From NCBI RefSeq assembly GCF_025698545.1, contig NC_068569.1:186001-250000 (forward strand): a DNA stretch of 64,000 nt, written 5' to 3'. Below the pieces are notes generated by a model. The model was not told where the DNA came from. It did not search any database and worked only from the letters and a program-made list of their open reading frames with translations. The translations under genes were made by a program, and so were the position numbers. The stretch's first letter is position 1, and each line of letters starts with the position of its first letter. This DNA is from Gossypium raimondii (lineage: Eukaryota > Streptophyta > Magnoliopsida > Malvales > Malvaceae). Positions 19,318-55,108 of the stretch are shown piece after piece.

Positions 19318-19547
19318 GGGTAAAGGGTAATTTTACAATAGTAAATATGTAATTTCACCATTTTAATAGCTATACCTTTATAATTTTGAAGGATTAAATT
19401 AATTTTTTATCATTTTAGGGGGTCAAAGTGTAATTTTACCTTTACTAATTTAAAATTTTATAAAATTTAAATGGTCTGAATGAAAATTTTTCCATTTTAG
19501 GGGGGTCAAGGCTTCTACCAGGCACCAGCCCCCTACACCCTTGGCTA
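19318..19547. mobile_element. Decayed hAT-type MITE fragment
   Basis: Resembles most of the 251-bp MITE at 46858-47108: shared words include CATTTTAATAGCTATA, TCATTTTAGGGGGTCAAAG, TTTTACCTTTA and TTTTCCATTTTAGG, followed by a GC-rich right end (CACCAGCCCCCTACACCCTTGGCT). The left terminal repeat is missing. Confidence 0.6.
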
Positions 19548-33290: not shown

Positions 33291-33374
33291 TTACCCTCAC
33301 ATTCAATTATAGGGGGCTGTTTTTGTTATAGTAGGGCATAACGCATTTGATGTTGCAGTAGCAATGGAGACTTA

Positions 33375-33541
33375 GGGTGAGTTTGAATGGGCGGTGCGTT
33401 TACCTGCAGTTAGTATAAAAACAACGGTAGCGGTGAGATTAGACGGTAGCAGTGAGATTAGATACTGGCGATACTATAGCGTGAGACAAAAAGTAAACTA
33501 AACGCACTACACCGCACCTAATCGCCCATCCAAACTCACCC
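33375..33541. mobile_element. PIF/Harbinger (Tourist-like) MITE, 167 bp
   Basis: Terminal repeats GGGTGAGTTTGAATGGGCG and GGGTGAGTTTGGATGGGCG (right, reverse-complemented) flanked by TTA on both sides (33372-33374 and 33542-33544). A 3-bp TTA/TAA duplication is the hallmark of this superfamily. Confidence 0.88.
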
Positions 33542-33544
33542 TTA

Positions 33545-34013
33545 CTGGTCGTCGGCTGCCGACCAACAGTTATTTCTTAAACAATGACATGACCTGGGAC
33601 AGGAAAGCAAGCGAGTTGTTCCAACTAACATGCATCATGAACCATAAATATATTTGTGAACAGCTTAATTGAATGCTTTAGAATCCTTGGCTTTCATTCT
33701 CGCTTTAACATACATATATGCATCCATTTACCAAGCATGCATGCATGCATGTTTTGTTGTCAGTCAGTAGTAATTTCCAAGAATTTATGCACAAGGTATT
33801 ATTGAAATGGAATGCACTCTAGCTTAAATTTCTGTTTGTTATAGAAAAACAAATAGTTCCAACTCCAAATGCGAAATTAAGGAAAAAGAAAACAGTAGTT
33901 AAAGGATGGTTGAAGATGAATGATTTAATTGAGGGATGCCATGCCATCATCAATCTTAGGATTGCAGAAGCAGAAGAATGTCGTGTCTGACAGTGTTGGG
34001 TTGGGTAAAAAGA
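33545..34013. other. Intergenic, 3' of phospholipase gene
   Basis: Contains a short GCAT repeat (about 33735-33751); no gene recognised. The phospholipase 3' UTR should lie just below 34014. Confidence 0.5.
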
Positions 34014-36582: not shown

Positions 36583-39500
36583 TCAGAAAATACGGGCGCA
36601 GTCACCAGCTTCACAAATCAAAACAGCAGTGCCATGGCTCAATTGGCTAGCGAACACTGGCTGTAGCTTTGGATATTCTACCCTCACAAATTTTGCTGCT
36701 TCCGTTGCACGAGCTGCATCTACCAATGCAACACAGCAGCCTCTGAATCCAGCTCCACTGAACCGAGCTCCAAAGACGCCTGGTGCCCTCAATAGGACCT
36801 CGTATAGTTGAAATAGTGGCTCACACCCTTCACATCACATTTCACTCATTTTATCAGAATCTTTAAACCAAATCAATTATTCATAATGCAGTCTAGCAGT
36901 CACTAACTCAAACTTTTTTACGTGGTAGTCCTGGAAAAGGAATCTTGTTCAAGAAAAGAGGAAGCATGGCTTTAGAAGCTTATACTGATCTAGATCTTCT
37001 AGATCGTTAGTTGACAAAAGGTCAACTTTAGGCTATTGTACATTCTGAGGTGGAAATCTAGAGACTTGGAGGGGTAAAAAGTAAAATGTAATGGCAAGGT
37101 CAAGGTCAAGTCCAGAGTCAGAATTCAGGTCAATGGCACTTAGAATATGTGAATTACTTCGGTTGAAAATAATTTTTGGTGATTTGATGATAAGACGGGA
37201 AGGTCCAATGCAGCTGGTGAACTGTATATAAGATGATAGTGTATATATCCGATAGGAATCTTAATTTTTTAGAATGCTAGTATATAAGATGATAGTGTAT
37301 ATAAGTTTCCCTAGTTTGATAAGGTAAAAATTGTGTATAAATAGGAGACTGTAGAAGCAGTATTTACATGACATAATTAATTCCAGTAGATCAATTCTCT
37401 ACACATGACGATCATCAAAGTTAAAAATTTGTTATGTCCTCTAGAACCAGTACCATACTAAGCTTAGCAAGTATTAGAACACCAAGATATTAAACTGATG
37501 GGTGCATATAATCACCATCAAGCACATTATGAATAAAATCAAAACAAAGAGAATGAGAGAATAAAAGTTATTCAAGGTATTACAATTACTACAACCCCTA
37601 AAATAAGCTCCAATTGGAAATTAGAGTATCAAAATTTATGGTTTTTGTTGCGTCTTGGTCTTTTTGGAATTAGAGGCATAGCAGTGCAACTAAGAAACAG
37701 AAAGTGTAGGACGTACCACATTCATAGTTTTTAATAGAACTTAGACCAGAAGCTGTCATTAGCTCTCCAAAGGCTCTCAAATCTCCTGAAGCCCAAGCCT
37801 CTAATCCTGGAATAACCATTATACAGCTCCCCTATTAGTTGATAAGCCATTGAACAACATGGTTATCTACATAAGATCATTATGTTGGCCAGATAAATTT
37901 ATGGAATTGTAATAACACAGTTTACCTTTTCTAACCCGCATATTCTCTGAAAAGTAATGCTCTGCTCTTTTGGCTAGATTTGGTTCCAGTTTGAACTGCA
38001 AAATAGAAGGCGATCTGATAAAGAAATAAACTTATGAGAAAAACTTAGAATGTTAAGTTGACAACAAGTTGCACAGGTTATATGCATCAAACAATACTAT
38101 CTACTGCGTTCTTTGCTTAGCTTAGGTGGAATGGTGTTGGGTTTGGTAGAGATCTTACATCTGAGACATGGAAGATTGCTGTTTCTTTTCCTTTGTTATG
38201 TAATCCAAAGAGTTTTAAGGCATAAGGGCAAGTATGTTATATGGAGTTGTTTAAGCTAGGTTTATTATTTCATAGGTACAGAACCATTAGGTTCATTTTG
38301 CTTGCAATCAAAGTTAATAAGCTTCTACTTTATGTAATTTTCATATTCAAGGAGTTTTTGCTAGTAGCATACTCATGAATGCATGCAAGCTACACCTCTA
38401 ACTTTTTAGTAGTGATAATTTATAAATCTTATTTAGCAAACTGAATTATTTAACTTAAATGTTTACTCTTCTAGTAGGACAGGTAATCATATAAAATTCA
38501 TACAAAACATAACGGTTTAACTGATAAGAAGAAATGCTGCAAAACTCTCAGCTTCTAAAATCAGAGTCTGTATTGATGTTTATACCTTGTGCGCTTCGTA
38601 AACTTCTGGTTTAACTGTTAAGAAAGAGGGTAGAAAAGGAATTAAATGCAATTACAAAAATAAATTGAAAAGGAAGTTCAAATTCATTGAGATAATTAGC
38701 TCAAGTACTAGCCATTGCAGAGGAAGGGCTCCACTTCTTTATTTCCAGAAGCACTACAAAACAGAAATAGAGAATTCAGTTTACTGAAAATATAACAGAA
38801 AAAGAAAAAGGTGAATCACAGATTCACAATAAACCAAGACAAACTTCTAACAAACAGTAAAAAACATGACAAAGTGTTGCAGTTTATTGGAAGTGTTATA
38901 AAGAGTTCACAGTATCTCATTGCAAGGTATATGCGAAATCAGAACAATACAACAAAAGATGTTGATTCATATAGTAAGAAAACGGAGGATAATGCCATGC
39001 ATTGAACATCTGTACACACTCTATTCATGACAAGTTGGACTTTTGAAAGGCATATAGAATATATGTAAGCTTTTAACTCCCCTAATCAGCATAATCAAAA
39101 AGCGGATGTATTGCATTAACATGAATATATAATGGTCCCGCAGTATAAGAGGATCAGTGATGATATCTGCAATCAGAAAATCAAAATAACAAGTGACAAT
39201 TGTCCAGTGTTCTCAATTAACAGGAACAAGATCATACTTCAGAAGAACTTTGGCAGCTTCTTGACATTCAGCAACTCGAGAATTGTATCCAGGATTGTTG
39301 GTCAAAGCTTGCCTAAGTCCTGAAAATGCCAGTAATATTTTGTAGCCTTTCTGTGGTTCAGCTTCTTGATCCTCCAGAAACTTTGGAGGGCGTATAAGCT
39401 TGTGCTCAGTAGTCTACATGAAACGAGAGGCCATATAACTCAAAGAAGTTCAAATAAATTGAGATTTTGTTTTACAAAATAATTAAAAGGAAAATTTTTC

Positions 39501-42500
39501 ATAATTGGATCAACATTACATTTAAGGAAAAGGGATTACATAAATCAATAAAAATAGAAAACAATCATAAATGCGTCAGTAGAAAACAATCATAAATCTG
39601 CCTGATAACCAAATTATAGCAATTGTATGAAGACTAAATTAAGCATAAGCAGTGCCAAGCTAACAAAAATAGAACACTTCAAAACAAAGAAGGATATGTT
39701 ATTCCTGAAATTACTACAAAAAGTTTGACTTACTTTGCAGTTCATGTAAGTTAGACAACCCTGGCTTGAAAGCAGTATGGCTGATTGATCCAGTATGCCA
39801 TTTCTCAGACCTAAATACTCATTTTCAATCACCCTACATGTGCCATCATGTCAGATGTAGAAAAGGCTTAACATGTAATGATAAAAAGGCAATCATATAT
39901 CACTAAGAAGAATGTGCATTCTCTGAGCAATGAAGTAGGTTTGAGATAAAAGAGTAATTAACATTCCAATATAAATAAAGCAAACTTTGTGGCCAACCAA
40001 AGACAACCAAGAAAGGAAGTTGCATATTTCCAAAAAAAACACGAAAAAAAAGAAAAAAAGAATGGAAGTTGAAAGCAATAATCCATATTATCTATTCATC
40101 TATCTTATTTCATTATTATCGATGCATTTTTTGCATATTCAAAAACTGTAGCTAAAAGTATATGGATATTTAATATTAACTTTTGTTGTATTAAATACCA
40201 CAACTTTTTAGGGCAAACAAGGTAAGTTACTGAGAAAGTCAAATAAACTTGCAATTCATTTTTCCCCTGCAAATCCAAACAACTTAATAAAAATGCTAAT
40301 GACTCCTTATCGCCATGCATTAGAGCTATTAAAACAAGATACATTCTATATTAGAATTACATAAGAAAATTGTTTACAGTATCAATTGAAGGCTGATCCA
40401 GAAAATATCCCTTAACTAATAAAATCTTATTTGATAAGGGCAGATAAAGACAAGAAAGCTATTCATTAATGAAAGCAAAAAGTATAACTGTCCTCCATAA
40501 GTTATGTGACTGCATTTAGTATAGTTCCTTAATCTTAAAGATATTTCAAAAGACAACAATTTCGCAACAAAGGGTACAATATTTAATATAAGTGCAACAA
40601 CAAGCACAGTATTTATCATTATTCTCCAAGCTCTATACATCCTCTCAAGGGCATCCACCAAGAAATTAGTAACCTTCTCCAGAACATCTTACATCTATGT
40701 TTCCCAAAACCTCCTTGATTTAAACAAACCCACATCTCATCTTCCACCCTCAAACCAGTTCCAGTTCCAATTCCAAAACCAACAGCCAACTCTAATTAGT
40801 AACGCCCCTCCCCCTACCTTTAAAACATTTCCGCTCTCTTCTTCGTTCAAAACAATTTTAGATTTGAGTCTAGGGATTATGGGTGAGCTGTGTCAACCAG
40901 TGGACAAAAGAATGAAAATTCTTTAAGATAACCTCTTTCATGTTTTCAGTAGCAGTCCATTTCCAATGTAAACCTAATATTATAGGATCATTTTGGGTGC
41001 TCTCCTATCTCATGCAAGACACAATCCACATTATCATATCCCTTGATTTTCCTTCTATACTGCAAATTAATGCTAGATTTCACGCAAAAGTAGGATAGAA
41101 AACAAAATGATGCGACAGCAAATTAGTTGTTTGCAATTAAAATTTCAATTCTTATTCTGCTAAACTTAACAGTTTAAACTTTTTTCTTTTATAGAATTAG
41201 GATTTTAGATTATCTATGCTATTTTATTTCAATTATTAATTTGCTTATTTTCCAAGTATTAGGGCATTAGGGCTATATTTACCATTTCTTGTTTCCATTA
41301 GTTTATAGGTACCAATGTTAGTTCTGTTTCTGGTAGCTTTTGAATGATGAACCATTAATAGTTTTGAGGGTTTTTTTAGATCTCCGAGGAAAGTGATTCA
41401 AACCCAAGTCTGAGCAAGGTGCTAAGTGCACCACCTACCATCAAACCATATGCTCATGTGCATATTTAAAGATATGGGGTATTAAGATTTCCCCTTCTGT
41501 TTCTCTCTGATCTTCTACTCCTAGTACCTGTATTCCTATCCATTTTACTCTGTTTCTCCCTAACTTCTCATATCTATCCCTAGTTTTTCTCTTTCAATTC
41601 TATTCTCTATCTCTTTGCCCTATTTATTCTACATAATTATTTTTTATAAATTAGGTCCTGCAGCATACTCAATGGCACTGAACGCTTAATTTGCCTTAAA
41701 AGATAACTTACTAAGATTAAGATCTGGACAAAAACCCAGTTTTGATTAATTTTGATGGTGTTACTACTAAATAAGAATGCAGAAAGATTTAAAGTAATCC
41801 AACAGAGATGAAAATACCTGTCATATTCAATATTTTCTCTGGGAGATACAGTTAAACCATTTGCAGTTTCCAAAGCCAGCAGGTAAGCTATGCCAACCTG
41901 TCAAAAGATAACTTCATTACATCTTTAACATGGAATGCAGAAAAGAAATTTACTAATAAGATACCTCAAATTGGTCTTTAAAACAAGATAATTACTGACA
42001 AAATTGCAATTCATTTTAATCCCCAAGTTATCAAGAAAAATGCGTACTTAACTATATCTATAAATAGTCCAGATCAATTCCAAAGAAACATTTAAGAAGA
42101 CACTTCCTCAGCCTATTTAGTGTCTAGGTTTTCTTCTTAAACATCTCTAAATGAAAGTAATTTCTTTGTAAGAAAACAGAAAAAGTGAATGCCTAAATCA
42201 GATCAACTCTTTCTGCCTGAGGATAACTATTTTCTAATGAAATGTTGATTTACATCTTCCCAACATTGAGGCCATACAGCTTCACTCAATTTCCCCCTTA
42301 TTAGAACATTCTATCCTTCACTGCTAATTTTGGATCTCCTCCGCTCCATCTTCACTAATGTTTCACAAGATAGAGACATCTATTGGAACACTGATTTTTC
42401 TCTATAATTAATATATCAGCAATTTTTGTAACTTTGAAATGGCAGAAAGAAATGACGACCTGTATCTATTTCTATTTTCAGAATGGTAAATGTGATCATT

Positions 42501-45500
42501 TCTGGGTGATTCACGTGTTCCCTCCTTTTATCTTTTTGAGTTTTCTCCATCTTGCTACCGTTACATGGTTGCCCAAGCATGACAGTCTCAAAGTAATCTC
42601 TGGAATATGTTCTACATGAATGGAAGAATTTTTTCAGAGTTAAAGTTCCTCAGTATAACTTTCTGTTCCTCAAGGAATGGTTCCTATAATATATAATATA
42701 TATAATCTTTATACTAAGGCATCTCTTTATTAAATTATGCCTCATTGCTCTGCAAAAACCAAAGCCAATTTCACTTATTTATTTTGGAGGGTGAAGAGTA
42801 GGATTTTCACAGTGGGGGAAGATATTATGAGAGAAATAGGATCTTAGTGTAAGTGATCACCAAGTAAGAACTTATTAATTCTTTTGTAAAATTTGTTTGA
42901 CTTTAAATTCAGAACATCTCTGAAATTTTAAACTCATATTTTCTTAAACCCCGTTTATGCAGTCTCCTAAGACCTGCTTTAACGTACTTTACAGTGCTAT
43001 CTAATGCTTCATCTTTATTGGCCCAATAGACTACTTACACCTTCACTCAGCTCTACTAAGTTGCATTATCTGCATAAAATAATGTTCTACTTAAATTGCC
43101 TAAATAAAATAAGCCAAATCAACTTACCCATCTAACTTTGACTTCATAAACATCAGTCCCATGTTCTCAATGAAGAAAGAAGAGAGAAGGCAGAAATAAC
43201 GAGAAGATAGATGTGGTACTTATTCAACCTAACAGTGACTAAATCTATGGATTTAAGTACAAATGCTTCAAACTAGCAAAGTTCTACAAAACATAGGTTA
43301 GTTTTTGAGGTTTAATTCTGTCTGTGTCAATAAGGATTATTTATTTTCAGGTCAAAAAAAGGATTGATTATTCCAGCCATTGAAGGTGAGAAAGAATTTC
43401 TGTTTAGCTTCTAATTACTCAAACAAGCCAAGAATTGGGATTTTATTGAGTAATGTCCATTTTCTAGTATAGAGAGGGCACTTTTAGCTTTCTGTTTCCT
43501 TATTCTAGGACGCAATGAACTTAGTTGTTGCTCTTTATTCACTAGTACTAACGGGGAACATAATTTTTATCGTTACCTATTGTTCCAATTTGTTCCACAA
43601 AGTGCTCCATTATTTCCTAATGATGCATAAAAAAGCATGTTATGAGAAATTTTACTCTAGGATGGATTTGGTTAGAGCACTGAGCTGATTTATCTCAAAA
43701 GTGATTGCATGAGCTTTTCTTTCCTTTCCTCTACCACTGAGTATCACCCTAACTGTATATATGTTGTAACAAACAGAACCAAAAACATAAACGTACAGCA
43801 GCTGAAGAGCTAAGGCCTGAACTGTCCAGACCCTCAGATCCGCAGATGTAGCCAATGATTCCCTGCAAATATGAGTATTTAAAAGTTAGTATTTTCAAAA
43901 AGAAAAAGAGAACGTGAAAACAAACTAATGGAAAATTTGTGCTTTCACGGTTAGTAATATGTCAATGTCATTCTCAGCAACTCGACAAACATAGCCATCA
44001 AATCAGGAATATGATACTGGAGGTTAATACTCGGTTCAAATAATAACTTTTTTTTTATCAATCTCAGAGGAGGCATAAACTTGAAAAGGGAGGTTGTTTA
44101 TAAAGAAAGATATTAGACACTTGGCTGTAATTATCTTTTATTAACAGATTTTGCATATTTTTCTAGGCTGTAAAACAGGTTTCCTGTCATTATCTTCATT
44201 ACAGGGTTTAGAAAGTGTCTTACAGCTTATTTTAGACCAATGATTTCAAGTTTTTTTTTCTCTGAGGATATAAACAGTTTACATCTTTTTTTTTCTTTTT
44301 TTTTTCTATGGAAGTATGGGAAAATAACTCTTACCTGAGCAAGATGGTTCCCTCTACTTTGTAATGCATACAAGGCTCCTCTAGCATAAATACCCCATTC
44401 AAATTCATCTGGTGACGGAGAAGATTTATCTGCGTTAATCTCTTCACCCTTGCTAATGGTCTGTCTTGGTTTATGGTTTTCATTAACTCTATAATACCAT
44501 GAGGCCAAAAAATTCAAGTTAAAAATGGCATACTAGAATGTAAAATCATGTAGGAAAAAAGTGATTTATGACGGCAATTAATCCTCTCTGAAGCAGACAA
44601 ATAAGCAAAGTATAAGCAAATGCTCTTGGACTAAGAGGGTTGTACAAGTATATATAGCAAACTAACTGGATTACACAAAGTATAGATTCATCTTTAACAG
44701 CAGCCACAGAATTTCCAATGTACTTGGTTCTCCTTTCTATAATAATTGAAGAAACCCTACCACTAACGGACATTTCAGGGTAGTTGATTACTGTAACAAT
44801 AGGTAAGTGGAGGTTGAGAGGGGGACGTAGAAAGAAAGTAAACTCAATGATTTGTGATACTTTTAAGCAACTCATATTGGAATGTATTTGGCTATGACAC
44901 ATGTTATATCTAATCATAAATACAGTTCATGCCCATTTTGGAAAATCTAATAAAATGGTCTATTTCATAATTAATCCTCATAAAGAAAAGCTAGCAACAC
45001 AGCTGTATAAACAAGTACAATTTCCTGCACTATCAATAATTACAATTCTATGGCTGCATAAACAAGAAAACATAAAATGCTGAACATGAATGAAAATAAC
45101 CGAAAAATCCTTATCAGAATTGGAAATATAAAAGACTAACTTAAAAATTTTAAGAAAAAAAGACTAAAGGACTTTATGGAAGACCAGTCCACAAAAGGAG
45201 TTCTCGTACCTGAACCTAACTTCTCCTTTAAATTGACCTGAGCGTAATGCAACCTACATCAAGGATTCCGAAGTTCATTAGGTCAAAGATAAAACGATAG
45301 AAATGCAATAGCAGAATAAGAAAAAGATGTTTTTTCACGTTCTGTTGTGATTTTTGAATTGCAATCCTTGGTTTTCTTTTATACCCTTCAAACCTTAAGA
45401 AACAAGCTGATAGGCTGGCATACATGTGTATGCATGTGTGTGTGATTGAGAGAATGAGTGAGAGTCTCTTTCTGAAAAGTAGATAGTTATGGTACTGGAG

Positions 45501-47405
45501 TCAGGCACTAGAAATTCAAAATTAGCCTTTCCTTGCAGAAATTCTTGAAGCTTGGATTCCCACTTTAAATTGATCAGTCAAATTCATAACCTTTTGCACT
45601 CTAGAGTGGTCTTTAACTTCATTTGTGACACAACAGAAAAATGATGCAGTTAACCCTAAGTAGTTACCCCTATCTCATAGGACGATATCATGTTTATTTA
45701 TCAAGAGAGGGAAAAAAAGAAAAGAAAGAAATGGAGACATAAACAGAGAGACAACATCTTGCTCGTATGATATGAAGTAGACACCATGCAGCAGTCAGTC
45801 TGGCTACAACATGAAGGATAAAGCCAGTAGCCTAGCCACATTCCGGTTACTAGGTTATGAAGCCCTTTGCACAAGCTAAATGGTATCATAAAACTGCCGA
45901 AGAGAAAAAAAGTAGATGAAGACTCTAGTCAAAAGCAACCTATTAGTTCTTTTTCATGAAATGCCCTGACAGGTCAATATCTCCTTCAGAAGAAAAAGAT
46001 ACTTGGCAACAGCTCAGGAAATCTGCTTCTTTTAGAACTTGCACCTAGTTTGCAAGGTAAACTGGTTCATTCCACCCCCTACCCTTCAAAGAACTATTGG
46101 AGGGTGGAAGTACACCACATTTTAAGATGGGAAATCCTTTAAGGTTTTAAAGCTCAAGGTAGGTCCAAGCAATTGAGTTTCATATTTATAAAGATAGAAG
46201 CTTGGAAGAGTAAACCTCAAAGCATAATAAAGTTCACAGGGTAACTATGATGGAGTCAAAAATCAAGTTCACTGTCTTTTATGAACTTCTTCAATGAAGA
46301 GAAAGAAAAAGAAGAGCGATAAACTTGCATGGTGTTTCATGTACACAAAATTTTATTTATTTCACATACTTTCTTCGCAAGAATTAGTAAGAACTCTAAA
46401 AGGTGAATACCAAATAACAGCACGAACTCATATTAATTATAGCATCTTCCATGAGGAACTTTTGTTAAAAAGTTAAGATCCAAGGCACAAGTGAACGCAA
46501 AACTTCCAGAAACCAGCTCCTCATACTACAAAACCTACAAGGTGAAAATACCATCTTAAGCTCACCTCAGTGCTACCAGAAGGAACAAATCCCAATAGTA
46601 TTCCCTTATTAATTGTCATAGCAGAAACAATTCCACCCTGCAAGCATTAGAAACCAAGAGTGGTTTAAAAAAAAAGAAGAAGAGAGAAATGAAAATGTAG
46701 ATGAGATCAATGCAAATACAGGTGCAACATAGTAACCTGATGATCGACATGAGCTCCCAATGGACAAATCCTGTAAGGAGATACAACAACTCGAACGTCT
46801 GCTGTACCTTTTCCTGCCATTTCAGACACTATCTTTCTGATTTCATGTAACTGCAATCAGGGGCGCAGCCAGGAAATTTTGTTAAGGGGCCAAAATTAAA
46901 TTGTATATTTTTATGAGAGTAAAAATGTAATTTTACCATTTTAATAGCTTATATTTTTATAATTTTTAAAGGATTACATCAATTTTTTATTATTTTTGGG
47001 GATAAGTACAATTTTACCTTTATTATTTTATAAATTTTGAAGGGGCGTAAATGGAAAATTTTCCATTTTAGGTGGCCGGGGCGCCTGCCACCCCCTGGCC
47101 ACGCGCTGACTGCAATCCAGTCCCAATCCCAATCCACAATAAATATAAGTACGAAAAAAGGGAGGGAAAAAGAGCAGATTCACTTATAAAAAGTGCAGAG
47201 GCAACCAAATCTACTACTTATCGTTTCCTTTGGAAAGCAAGAAAATTACAAGGTACTGATAAATTCTCATTAATGTGAATGAACCACAAGTTAACAATCA
47301 AACCCAGATTGCTAACCCAAAGAAAGAGAAAATACACTGAAAGTGATGTATGGATCAAAAAAGAATTGTTACCTCGTCCTGAGTAGGCCAAGACATTGCA
47401 CCCAT
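36583..47405 (-). CDS. GALAK: Galacturonokinase (D-galacturonic acid kinase, EC 2.7.1.44)
   Basis: Cytosolic GHMP-family kinase that phosphorylates D-galacturonate at C1, salvaging pectin sugar into UDP-GalA. Fourteen minus-strand exons: 47405-47373, 46850-46737, 46637-46566, 45253-45210, 44488-44335, 43862-43797, 41897-41818, 39833-39734, 39413-39238, 38753-38713, 38614-38586, 37995-37926, 37806-37717, 36827-36583. Phases close to 437 aa. The first ATG gives MGAMSWPT; the Arabidopsis protein (about 424 aa) starts at the equivalent of the second ATG, 47396, so either is possible. Substrate/ATP motifs: RICPLGAHVDHQ (about 38-49), GLDSSGLSSSAAVG (150-163, glycine/serine-rich phosphate loop), GARFSGAGFRGCC (376-388). 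It ends ICEAGDCARIF. All introns are GT-AG except intron 10, whose donor is GC. Intron 1 carries a MITE whose target duplication overlaps the acceptor. Distinguished from L-arabinokinase by the absence of the N-terminal glycosyltransferase-like half. Confidence 0.96.
46858..47108. mobile_element. hAT-type MITE, 251 bp, in GALAK intron 1, TSD ACTGCAAT
   Basis: Perfect 8-bp duplications ACTGCAAT at 46850-46857 and 47109-47116. Tips CAGGGGCGCAGCCAGG and (right, reverse complement) CAGCGCGTGGCCAGG. AT-rich middle, no transposase. On the gene strand the element ends 7 nt before exon 2, so it supplies the polypyrimidine and branch-point region of the intron (a CTTAAC word about 32 nt before the AG). 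Confidence 0.93.
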
Positions 47406-51413: not shown

Positions 51414-53319
51414 TGTAACAACCCTATACCTGGTCTAATCGTACTGACCCAATATAAGGCTATTACATTTGGTGCCAAATGGTTATAGCTAGATATTGTT
51501 TAATTAAAACATTTATACATAGCATTTTAACTTACCAACCATATTTGCAAACATACATATAGTTTTACTAATTCATTTCATATATATACCAAAATACGTA
51601 AAGTACTTAAAAATAGATAGAAGTCCAAGAGTTTACATTTTAGTTCCTAACACATGGAAGCATAACTGACTGTCTATGTACATGCCATTTTAATTCAAAA
51701 TATGGTACCTACTTTTGAAGCTCTTGAGGATGTGATGAGATGAGAGATCTTCTATCCTAACTTTACCTCTTCGAGACAAACTGTACCTACGCGTTAAAAT
51801 TAAACGCGTTAAGTCGGTGAAGGCTCAGTAAGCACTACAAGAAATAAACAGATAAATAAATATAAACAAAATATGTCAAACTCTTTCTGTTATTACGTAT
51901 TTACGTACGTATAAGCTTCATAAAACTTACCTTAGCATTTTAATGATTCGCTTTTATCCACAAATCATAATCTTAGCCCAAAGTAGATTTTATAGAACAC
52001 ACCGGATATACGGAACAAACACAGAGGTGCATTGGTATGCACTAATGAACAGAGAGCACTAAAGTGCTATACAGAGAGCACAGATGTGCTAAACAGAGAG
52101 CACTGACGTGCTAAAATCAGATAGCACCAACGTGCTAGTAGTCAGAGAGCACTAACGTGCTAATAATCAGAGAGCGCGCTAAAGTTCCTTAATGGCATGC
52201 CACTAATATCCTGGTAGTTCTAAATTCCATCTACTTGGGCATTAAAACTGAATCTCATTCAATTAAATACTTTATAGAATTATTTCGAAAAAGATTTCTC
52301 ATTTCTCCATCATTACAATTTAGTGCACATTTCACAATTCACAATTATCACACCATTTTCACATATATATACTTTTGTCACAATATTTACTTAATGTTCA
52401 ATCAATATACCACTATATACTTTCCATCTATAATTTTCTTTACAAATTTCATAGTTCCATAATCTTTTATTTTACTTTATTTTATTTTATTTCTAAATAA
52501 TTCTATACTATAATATAGGCATTTAAATAAAATAATTAAAAAAAAACCTTGTAGTACTTACAACAAAAAGGTTGAGATGATATCTTCCTTCACTCCTTAG
52601 CCTTCTATTTTCCTTTTTCTTCAATTAGGTCCTTTGCTTTCTTTTCTTTCTCAATTTGAAATTGAACCTTAAAAACCCTAATTTTCTTCTTTACTTTTTC
52701 TTTCTTTCTTTCTCCCCTGTTTCTCCCCTGTTCCGTTTCGAATTCTATTCTGTTTCTTTCTTTTCATTTATTTTTCTTTTGTTTTATATATATAATAATA
52801 ATATAATATTGTAATAATATAATATAATAACTTACTTATTAATTAAATACCATAATATATAATATATATATAACTTAAATTAAAAATATCTTAGATATTT
52901 CATTTGTTATGCCGCCTCAATTTTAGAAAAGGCATAATTTCCTATTTGGTCCTTTTAACTTTCTTTAATTTATAATTAAACTTTCACACATATTTCAATC
53001 TAATCCCTTTTCCTAATTACTTCCAATTACATCAAATTCTCATAGTCAAAACATAATTAGACACACAACTAACTTAGTAAATATTTATAATAAATATTTA
53101 CAAATCATTCTTGGAACAAAGTCCCGATAATGCATTTTTTTATTTAATCTATTTAAATAAATTTTACCATATAATCAATAAAGTTTTATTATCAAAATTT
53201 TCACGCAACCTTCCTATCATAATATAGACCATACCACAATATTAAAATAGATTTTCTTTCTAGCTCGGATTTGTGGTTACGAAACCACTATTCCGATTTA
53301 CTAAAAATGGGTCATTACA
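51414..53319 (+). mobile_element. Solo LTR, 1.9 kb, TSD TGGGG
   Basis: Starts TGTAACAACCCTATACC and ends GGGTCATTACA, flanked by TGGGG at 51409-51413 and 53320-53324. Removing it plus one duplication restores codons for PKGMGGMGFREL in the LINE. No internal coding. It carries a 20-25-bp tandem array at 52021-52190. Confidence 0.95.
52021..52190 (+). repeat. Tandem array in solo LTR (CAGAGAGCAC...GTGCTA units)
   Basis: About six units of 24-29 bp, each CAGAGAGCACxxAxGTGCTA, where GCAC and GTGC form a small palindrome. Ends about 1130 bp before the LTR end. Confidence 0.92.
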
Positions 53320-55108
53320 TGGGGGGTATGGGTTTTAGGGAATTAAGACGTTTTAACGTGGCATTGCTTGGCAGACAGGTGTGGCGCCTTATAAACTGTA
53401 AAGAAACGCTTTGTTTTAGAGTTCTTAGTGCTAAATACTTCCCGGATGGTGACGTTCTTCACCCTAAAAGGGTTAACAAGCCGTCATTCACTTGGCAGAG
53501 CATTAATAAAGCGGCTTGCTTACTGCATGAGGGTTTCGGGTGGAATGTTGGAAACAGTAGTAAAATTGATTTGAAGAATGAGTACTGGGGTTTTGAAGGG
53601 TTGTCGGGTGGTTCCATTTGTATTGATAGAGAGAAGATCCACGAAAGAAAGGTATGCGATCTTATGAATAATTCGAAAGATAGTTGGAATGAGAATAGGA
53701 TTAAGGAGATTTATGGTAATTGTTTGGGGGACCAATTTTGTAAAATTCCCATTCTTCCTAATGGTCCCGAGGACTAGCGGACTTGGTTTCATAATCCTAT
53801 GGGATTTTACACTGCAAAGTCGGCCTATTCTTGGATGACTTTGAAACATGTTGGTTTTGGCCCTCATCGCTTCCTCTGGAAACTTATTTGGAAGCTCCAA
53901 ACTTTGCCTAAGATCAGAATTTTTTGCTGGCGATTGGGTCACGATATTATCCCTACCTATGAGAAAATTTCCAGCATTTGGAGGGATGTTAACAGTTTGT
54001 GCCCGAGATGTGGAATGGATAAGGAGACTCTTATTCATGCGTTGAAGGATTGTCCTAAGGCCAGGGCGGTGCTGGCTTATGGTGGCCTGAATAAGAAGCT
54101 GCTCGATGGAAGCTATGGTCGGTGTGTGGATTGGATTGAGGACGTGACTCGTATGTTGAATAGGAAGGCTTTTTCTGATTTTATTACAACATTATGGAAT
54201 ATCTGGAATAGTAGGAATAACAGGGTTTTTCGAGATGTGGAGGAGGACGCCAAAATTATCTGGGATAGAGCGGCTTCGTTGTCTAGGGATTTTCGTATTT
54301 TTAACCTGTTGGAGAAACCTATGATTCCAAAGCCTGTTGTGGAGAAAGGTTGGCAGAAACCTGGTCCAGGGACTCTTAAAATCAATTTTGACGCTACTGT
54401 TCATAAAAAGAAAGCTTATTATGGCCTGGTGGCTAGGGATTCTGATGGTTTTGTGCATGGCGGGTGCGTAGGTTGTGTAAAGAAGGATTTAAGTGTGGAA
54501 TGGGCAGAATTGCAGGCTTTGGAAGAAAGCATTAATTTTGCTAGAATAAATAATTGGAAGGTTGTGGCGTTGGAATCTGACTGTGCAAATTTAGTCAATC
54601 GGTTCAACAGCAGGCAGAAGGATTTGACAGTGTCAGGCTACAGGTTGAGGGAGATCCAGAAGCTTACTACTTACTTTAGTAAGTTTACTATTACTTGGGC
54701 CCTGCGTTGTTGTAACAAAGTGGCTGATGCACTTTGCAAGTGGGCTAAAATTAAAAACTGTTATTTGGCTTTTAACTTGGAATATCCTTCGGATATCCAT
54801 GACCTTGTTTTGAAAGACGCTATTAATTGAAGTGTGTTGACCTCCAGGTCTTTATCAAAAAAAAAGAAAAAATAAATTATAATTATATTATATACTCTTA
54901 ATAACTCTATTTAGTAAATTTTTTAAATAAACTATTCTCATCAAATTATCAAAATAATACATAAAATGCGAATTAGTTTATACTTTTTTAAATAGCTTTA
55001 TTTTAGGTAAAATATATTTACTTTAATAATAAAATAAAGGGCTTTTATGAGTAAAAATCATAGATTAAGAGCTTATTTAACTACAAAAATAAGTTGAGGG
55101 CTTGTTTA

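Follow-up and report, generated by a model that had tools for sequence, protein, structure and literature searches.

Intron 1 of a kinase gene of Gossypium raimondii contains a 251-bp MITE whose target-site duplication has doubled the acceptor of the intron, so that two identical acceptors now lie 259 nt apart. The best overall explanation, to which we assign a probability of about 0.77, is an old insertion after which the downstream acceptor, joined to exon 2 at 46850, serves as the productive site of the main mRNA and the upstream acceptor is a relic. The branch point and pyrimidine region ahead of the acceptor in use would then be supplied by the transposon. All positions refer to the window, the 64,000-nt stretch that was analysed, and the coordinates of the features are collected in Table 1.

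Table 1. Features of the kinase gene and of the element in its first intron
Feature	Position	Strand	Basis
Whole kinase coding region	36583..47405	-	14 exons by hand reading, Pfam and structure matches
Exon 1, first 11 codons, donor GAG|GTAACA	47373..47405	-	hand-read gene model
Intron 1 as predicted, 522 nt	46851..47372	-	hand-read gene model
Exon 2	46737..46850	-	hand-read gene model
Upstream duplication copy ATTGCAGT (AG 47111-47110), original intron context	47109..47116	-	sequence
Downstream duplication copy ATTGCAGT (AG 46852-46851), exon 2 from 46850	46850..46857	-	sequence
251-bp hAT-type MITE, ends CAGCGCGTGGCCAGG...CCTGGCTGCGCCCCTG	46858..47108	-	genome DNA search, end and duplication analysis
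TTAAC, possible branch-point motif in the MITE (branch A 46882, -32)	46881..46885	-	sequence; not above chance
Candidate 92-nt cassette exon between the upstream acceptor and donor-like AAG|GTAAAA in the MITE	47018..47109	-	sequence match only

The host gene

The gene is encoded on the minus strand, and its exons, which were read by hand, join into an intact frame of 437 residues. The protein scores above the cut-offs for Pfam PF10509, PF00288 and PF08544 (the galactose-binding signature and both GHMP kinase domains). It also matches solved galactokinase structures and the NCBIfam galactokinase models, the latter below their cut-offs. Judged by these matches, the gene is a GHMP kinase of the galactokinase branch. 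The name galacturonokinase presumably applies through a similarity to Arabidopsis At3g10700, and the specificity for galacturonic acid is putative. Searches of mostly non-subscription literature for galacturonokinase and cotton found no paper, and those for galacturonokinase and intron returned off-topic titles only.

A genome search with kinase residues 1-161 retrieved only the gene itself and no paralogue, and a search with joined exons 1-3 retrieved no second or processed copy (retrocopy). This gene, therefore, probably carries the kinase function. Intron 10 apparently begins with GC instead of GT (38711-38712, AATG|GCTAGT); this junction is needed to hold the reading frame, and its donor-matrix score is close to 0.

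The duplicated acceptor

The two copies of ATTGCAGT on the gene strand, at 47116-47109 and 46857-46850, flank the element exactly and match at 8/8 positions, which is the best match of any nearby flank pair. The chance of such a match at fixed flanks is about 4e-5. The direct repeat runs for 9 nt, since the last base of the element is also G. This duplication is the target-site duplication of the element. The target site took in the final 7 bases of the intron plus the opening base of the exon, and, because it spans the end of the intron, the GATTGCAG|T acceptor is present on both sides of the element. At the downstream acceptor, 7 nt of native sequence precede exon 2.

The initial annotation had proposed that an 8-bp duplication carries the AG acceptor of intron 1 in copies 259 nt apart, and that the acceptor in use has just 7 nt of native sequence upstream. 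The first claim agrees with the sequence at every coordinate and the second with the hand-read gene model. The donor of intron 1 lies just after 47373, at a distance of 263 nt from the upstream AG. As the element is preceded by intron sequence (47372-47117) that has a donor of its own, intron 1 is older than the insertion.

The element and its family

By its genome-wide matches and its ends, the 251-bp element is a hAT-type MITE and a member of a high-copy family. A DNA search of the genome (751 Mb, 281 contigs) gave 3206 first-look candidates, of which the best 40, including the kinase-intron copy, were scored and all found to match. The closest other copy in this search, among the best 40 of the 3206 candidates, is 84% identical. 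Both ends could be located by means of the terminal repeats at 32 of the 40 loci (31 others and the kinase-intron copy), and eight loci were dropped. A duplication of at least 7/8 is found at 22 of these 31 other copies (16 at 7/8 and 6 at 8/8), the remaining 9 having 5/8 or less. In 2000 shuffles of the flanks, the 7/8 threshold was reached by 0.76 copies on average and by no more than 5.

The terminal inverted repeats of the family consensus, CAGGGGCGTAGCCAGG ... CTGGCTTCGCCCCTG, are short and of the CAGGGGCG type, which we take to be hAT-like. Those of the kinase-intron MITE are imperfect, and its 5' repeat lacks a base. The automatic end-finder scored this copy at 1/8 with its start placed one base off, apparently because the 5' terminal repeat is one base shorter than the consensus. 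The element has no coding capacity: none of the 18 window frames of at least 110 aa overlaps 46858-47108.

It is extremely improbable that the insertion is an assembly artefact or a chance repeat. No point in favor of this explanation was found; the element belongs to a family, its ends can be recognised, and a duplication borders it. A misassembled neighbour is unlikely because, of the 39 other copies retrieved, the one that aligns most closely shares 88% identity with the kinase-intron MITE.

Other repeats are present in the window. A partial second copy of the same family, 79% identical to the kinase-intron MITE, is located at 19328-19504. An inverted-repeat element at 33370-33545 has, by eye, GGGTGAGTTTGGATGGGCG-like ends and looks like another MITE, and frames at 53271-54830 resemble, also by eye, fragments of a non-LTR reverse transcriptase and RNase H.

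Age and expected frequency of the insertion

Over 241 non-CpG sites, the kinase-intron MITE has diverged from the consensus of the 39 other copies by a K2P distance of 0.117, and its terminal branch is 0.114 (the median of all copies is 0.104). Distances of this size imply that the frame of the gene was kept long after the insertion. The available text of PMC11457090 gives a Malvaceae substitution rate of 4.56e-9 per site per year and also quotes 1.9e-9, both being synonymous-site rates. With the former, the insertion is about 26 million years old (16-36 with two standard errors); the doubled rate gives 13 million years, and 1.9e-9 gives 62 million years. All of these point ages exceed the crown age of the cottons, 5-10 million years. 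This suggests that the insertion is older than the cotton radiation, and related cottons should thus share it. Given that synonymous-site rates were used and that the copies compared are the best candidates, there is room for a closer sister copy.

If 3206 insertions were distributed randomly over 751 Mb, 3 to 6 would be expected to have an acceptor AG inside the 8-bp target, for an intron number on the order of 100,000-200,000. An acceptor-duplicating insertion is thus to be expected in such a genome, and the present one probably represents a clear instance of a phenomenon already known.

Consequences for the reading frame

The joining of exon 1 to 46850 gives the uninterrupted 437-residue protein. 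Its joining to 47109 adds 259 nt and shifts the frame, just as the initial annotation had stated, and a stop follows 13 codons on. The AGs of intron 1 compared for frame were the two duplicate acceptors and 47105, the others not being tried individually. The exon beginning at 47105, after the first AG within the MITE, would be longer by 255 nt and, by reading, runs into a stop too. The product of the upstream acceptor would accordingly be a transcript with a premature stop and not a useful isoform, barring a restart of translation at Met22. This weakens the earlier proposal of a built-in alternative isoform, as a second protein would depend on such a restart.

A different possibility is that exon 1 is bypassed altogether. 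The protein would then be made from Met22 in exon 2, by way of the 47109 mRNA, of intron retention or of an internal promoter, and the splicing of intron 1 would hardly matter. Met22 lies in the correct frame, and each of the four ATGs ahead of it in the retained segment opens a short frame that closes before Met22. The family matches and most of the structure matches begin at residue 24 or later, and residues 1-21 are largely outside the conserved core, with one structure, 7rcl_A, matching from residue 14. However, the junction of exons 1 and 2 keeps the frame and has a proper donor, and translation resumes inefficiently once several short frames have been passed. The bypass of exon 1 is therefore considered quite improbable.

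The MITE-backed acceptor at 46850 is likely the productive one because only the downstream copy of the two keeps the frame and no second copy of the gene was found in the genome. With the gene intact over the age of the element, splicing would be expected to proceed mainly to 46850.

Splice signals at the end of the element

The strength of the two acceptors was compared using a weak matrix derived from 20 hand-read acceptors of the window: 12 from the kinase gene (intron 1 excluded), 5 from a PIN-like gene and 3 from a phospholipase-like gene, the latter two named by reading only. The downstream copy scores 4.5 and the upstream copy 5.5. These values are higher than those of 92% and 94%, respectively, of the 622 decoy AGs in the kinase gene, and leave-one-out scores of the real acceptors range from -1.1 to 12.7. 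A matrix of 20 sites cannot separate the two copies.

When random window DNA is swapped for the end of the MITE, the mean score is 7.0 versus 4.8 at the downstream site (19th percentile). Random local DNA thus outscores the end of the element, which indicates that the MITE confers no particular strength in splicing and that its end is tolerable. The median acceptor score of the 31 other family copies is 4.4. The idea that the pyrimidine-rich ends of the family (74-79% of 19 nt) constitute a ready acceptor was rejected because they score below random local DNA. Of the transposon-built splice site proposed initially, the site itself stands as the best reading of the frame and of the searches that found no second gene copy, whereas the signals of the MITE, by matrix and against random DNA, are not notable.

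The same applies to the word CTTAAC, put forward earlier as the branch point. The A of TTAAC at -32 fits the position of a plant branch point, but such a motif is no more than chance would provide: YTNAY occurs at -18 to -45 for 54% of random window positions and 13/20 real acceptors. The family consensus reads otherwise at this position, and among the copies printed L019 alone shares TTAAC. The acceptor at 46850 is preceded by a run of 95 nt without AG. Random positions have such a run in 2.2% of cases, and at real acceptors the AG-free runs extend for 3 to 97 nt. The AG of exon 2 is consequently the first AG after either branch candidate in the MITE. Most of the run consists of element sequence, and the run as such may be a trait of the family.

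It is conceivable, although somewhat doubtful, that both acceptors are used appreciably. Besides the productive 46850 mRNA, the gene would then make either a degraded premature-stop mRNA from 47109 or an mRNA with the 92-nt cassette exon, which would lower or tune the kinase; this is compatible with the best explanation. The upstream acceptor is intact and in its native context, with the score of 5.5 given above. The donor-like AAG|GTAAAA of the MITE (47012-47020) scores 7.4, which is within the leave-one-out range of 17 real donors (-1.0 to 10.7). In carrot, intronic hAT-like MITEs are often kept in transcripts, according to the available text of PMC8227079. On the other hand, the sequence just upstream of the 47109 copy is low in pyrimidine (32% of 19 nt). 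In addition, a perfect 8/8 match is no rarity in the family, being present at 6 of the 22 other copies that reach 7/8 or better, so that survival of the upstream copy does not demonstrate selection on it. As AAG|GTAAAA is also found in the family consensus, other intronic copies in the same orientation may be prone to exonisation.

Proposed mechanism

By combining the above information, the preferred explanation, in which the downstream acceptor is productive, can be described in some detail. A 251-bp non-autonomous hAT-type element would have inserted long ago into an 8-bp target across the 3' end of intron 1. Once the target was duplicated, either side of the element would have carried a complete GATTGCAG|T acceptor. 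The downstream copy, being joined to exon 2, would have become the main productive acceptor, and the spliceosome would take a branch point in the element, e.g. TTAAC at -32 or TTAAT at -46, the latter with its A at 46896. The element would then leave as part of a longer intron with the protein unchanged. The upstream copy would be a relic, and its use would lead to a premature-stop transcript for which decay is expected.

A more far-reaching version, which we regard as unlikely, is that a single-copy nucleotide-sugar gene has run on a transposon-derived acceptor for more than 10 million years, while the ancestral acceptor, persisting 259 nt upstream as a poison alternative, determines how much of the enzyme is made.

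The intron represents a natural experiment, as two identical 9-nt acceptors are found in it, one in native and the other in transposon upstream context. Competition between them bears on acceptor choice in plants beyond the last bases of the intron. The case also illustrates how a hAT element that hits a splice site can be made harmless by its own duplication.

Comparison with known systems

Maize Ds and dSpm insertions are spliced out of mRNA, and Ds belongs, like the kinase-intron MITE, to the hAT elements and makes an 8-bp duplication. Unlike this MITE, the maize elements sit in exons and use donors or acceptors at or near their ends.

No paper on hAT elements at intron-exon borders was found in the mostly non-subscription literature searched. 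In the available text of the mJing paper, the term 'acceptor site' refers to excision footprints, and that of PMC2874221 holds gene-trap material only.

Introners, as described in the available text of PMC9860276, are transposon-made introns for which the target-site duplication provides a splice site. In the kinase gene, too, the duplication made by a DNA transposon supplies a splice site, and splicing would remove the element. However, the kinase intron existed before the insertion, and its acceptor was duplicated without an intron being created; the family is not known as an intron maker.

Also related are the MITEs of plant genes that change or supply splice sites. In carrot, hAT-like MITEs kept in transcripts form splice variants (PMC8227079), and in mulberry MITEs are linked to alternative 3' sites (PMC6593561; review PMC12595863), in each case as given in the available text. 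The carrot elements are, like the kinase-intron MITE, of the hAT type. The carrot and mulberry cases rest on RNA data and the kinase case on sequence, and a duplicated acceptor is not among the cases described in the available parts of PMC8227079 and PMC6593561, a feature by which the kinase intron differs from both.
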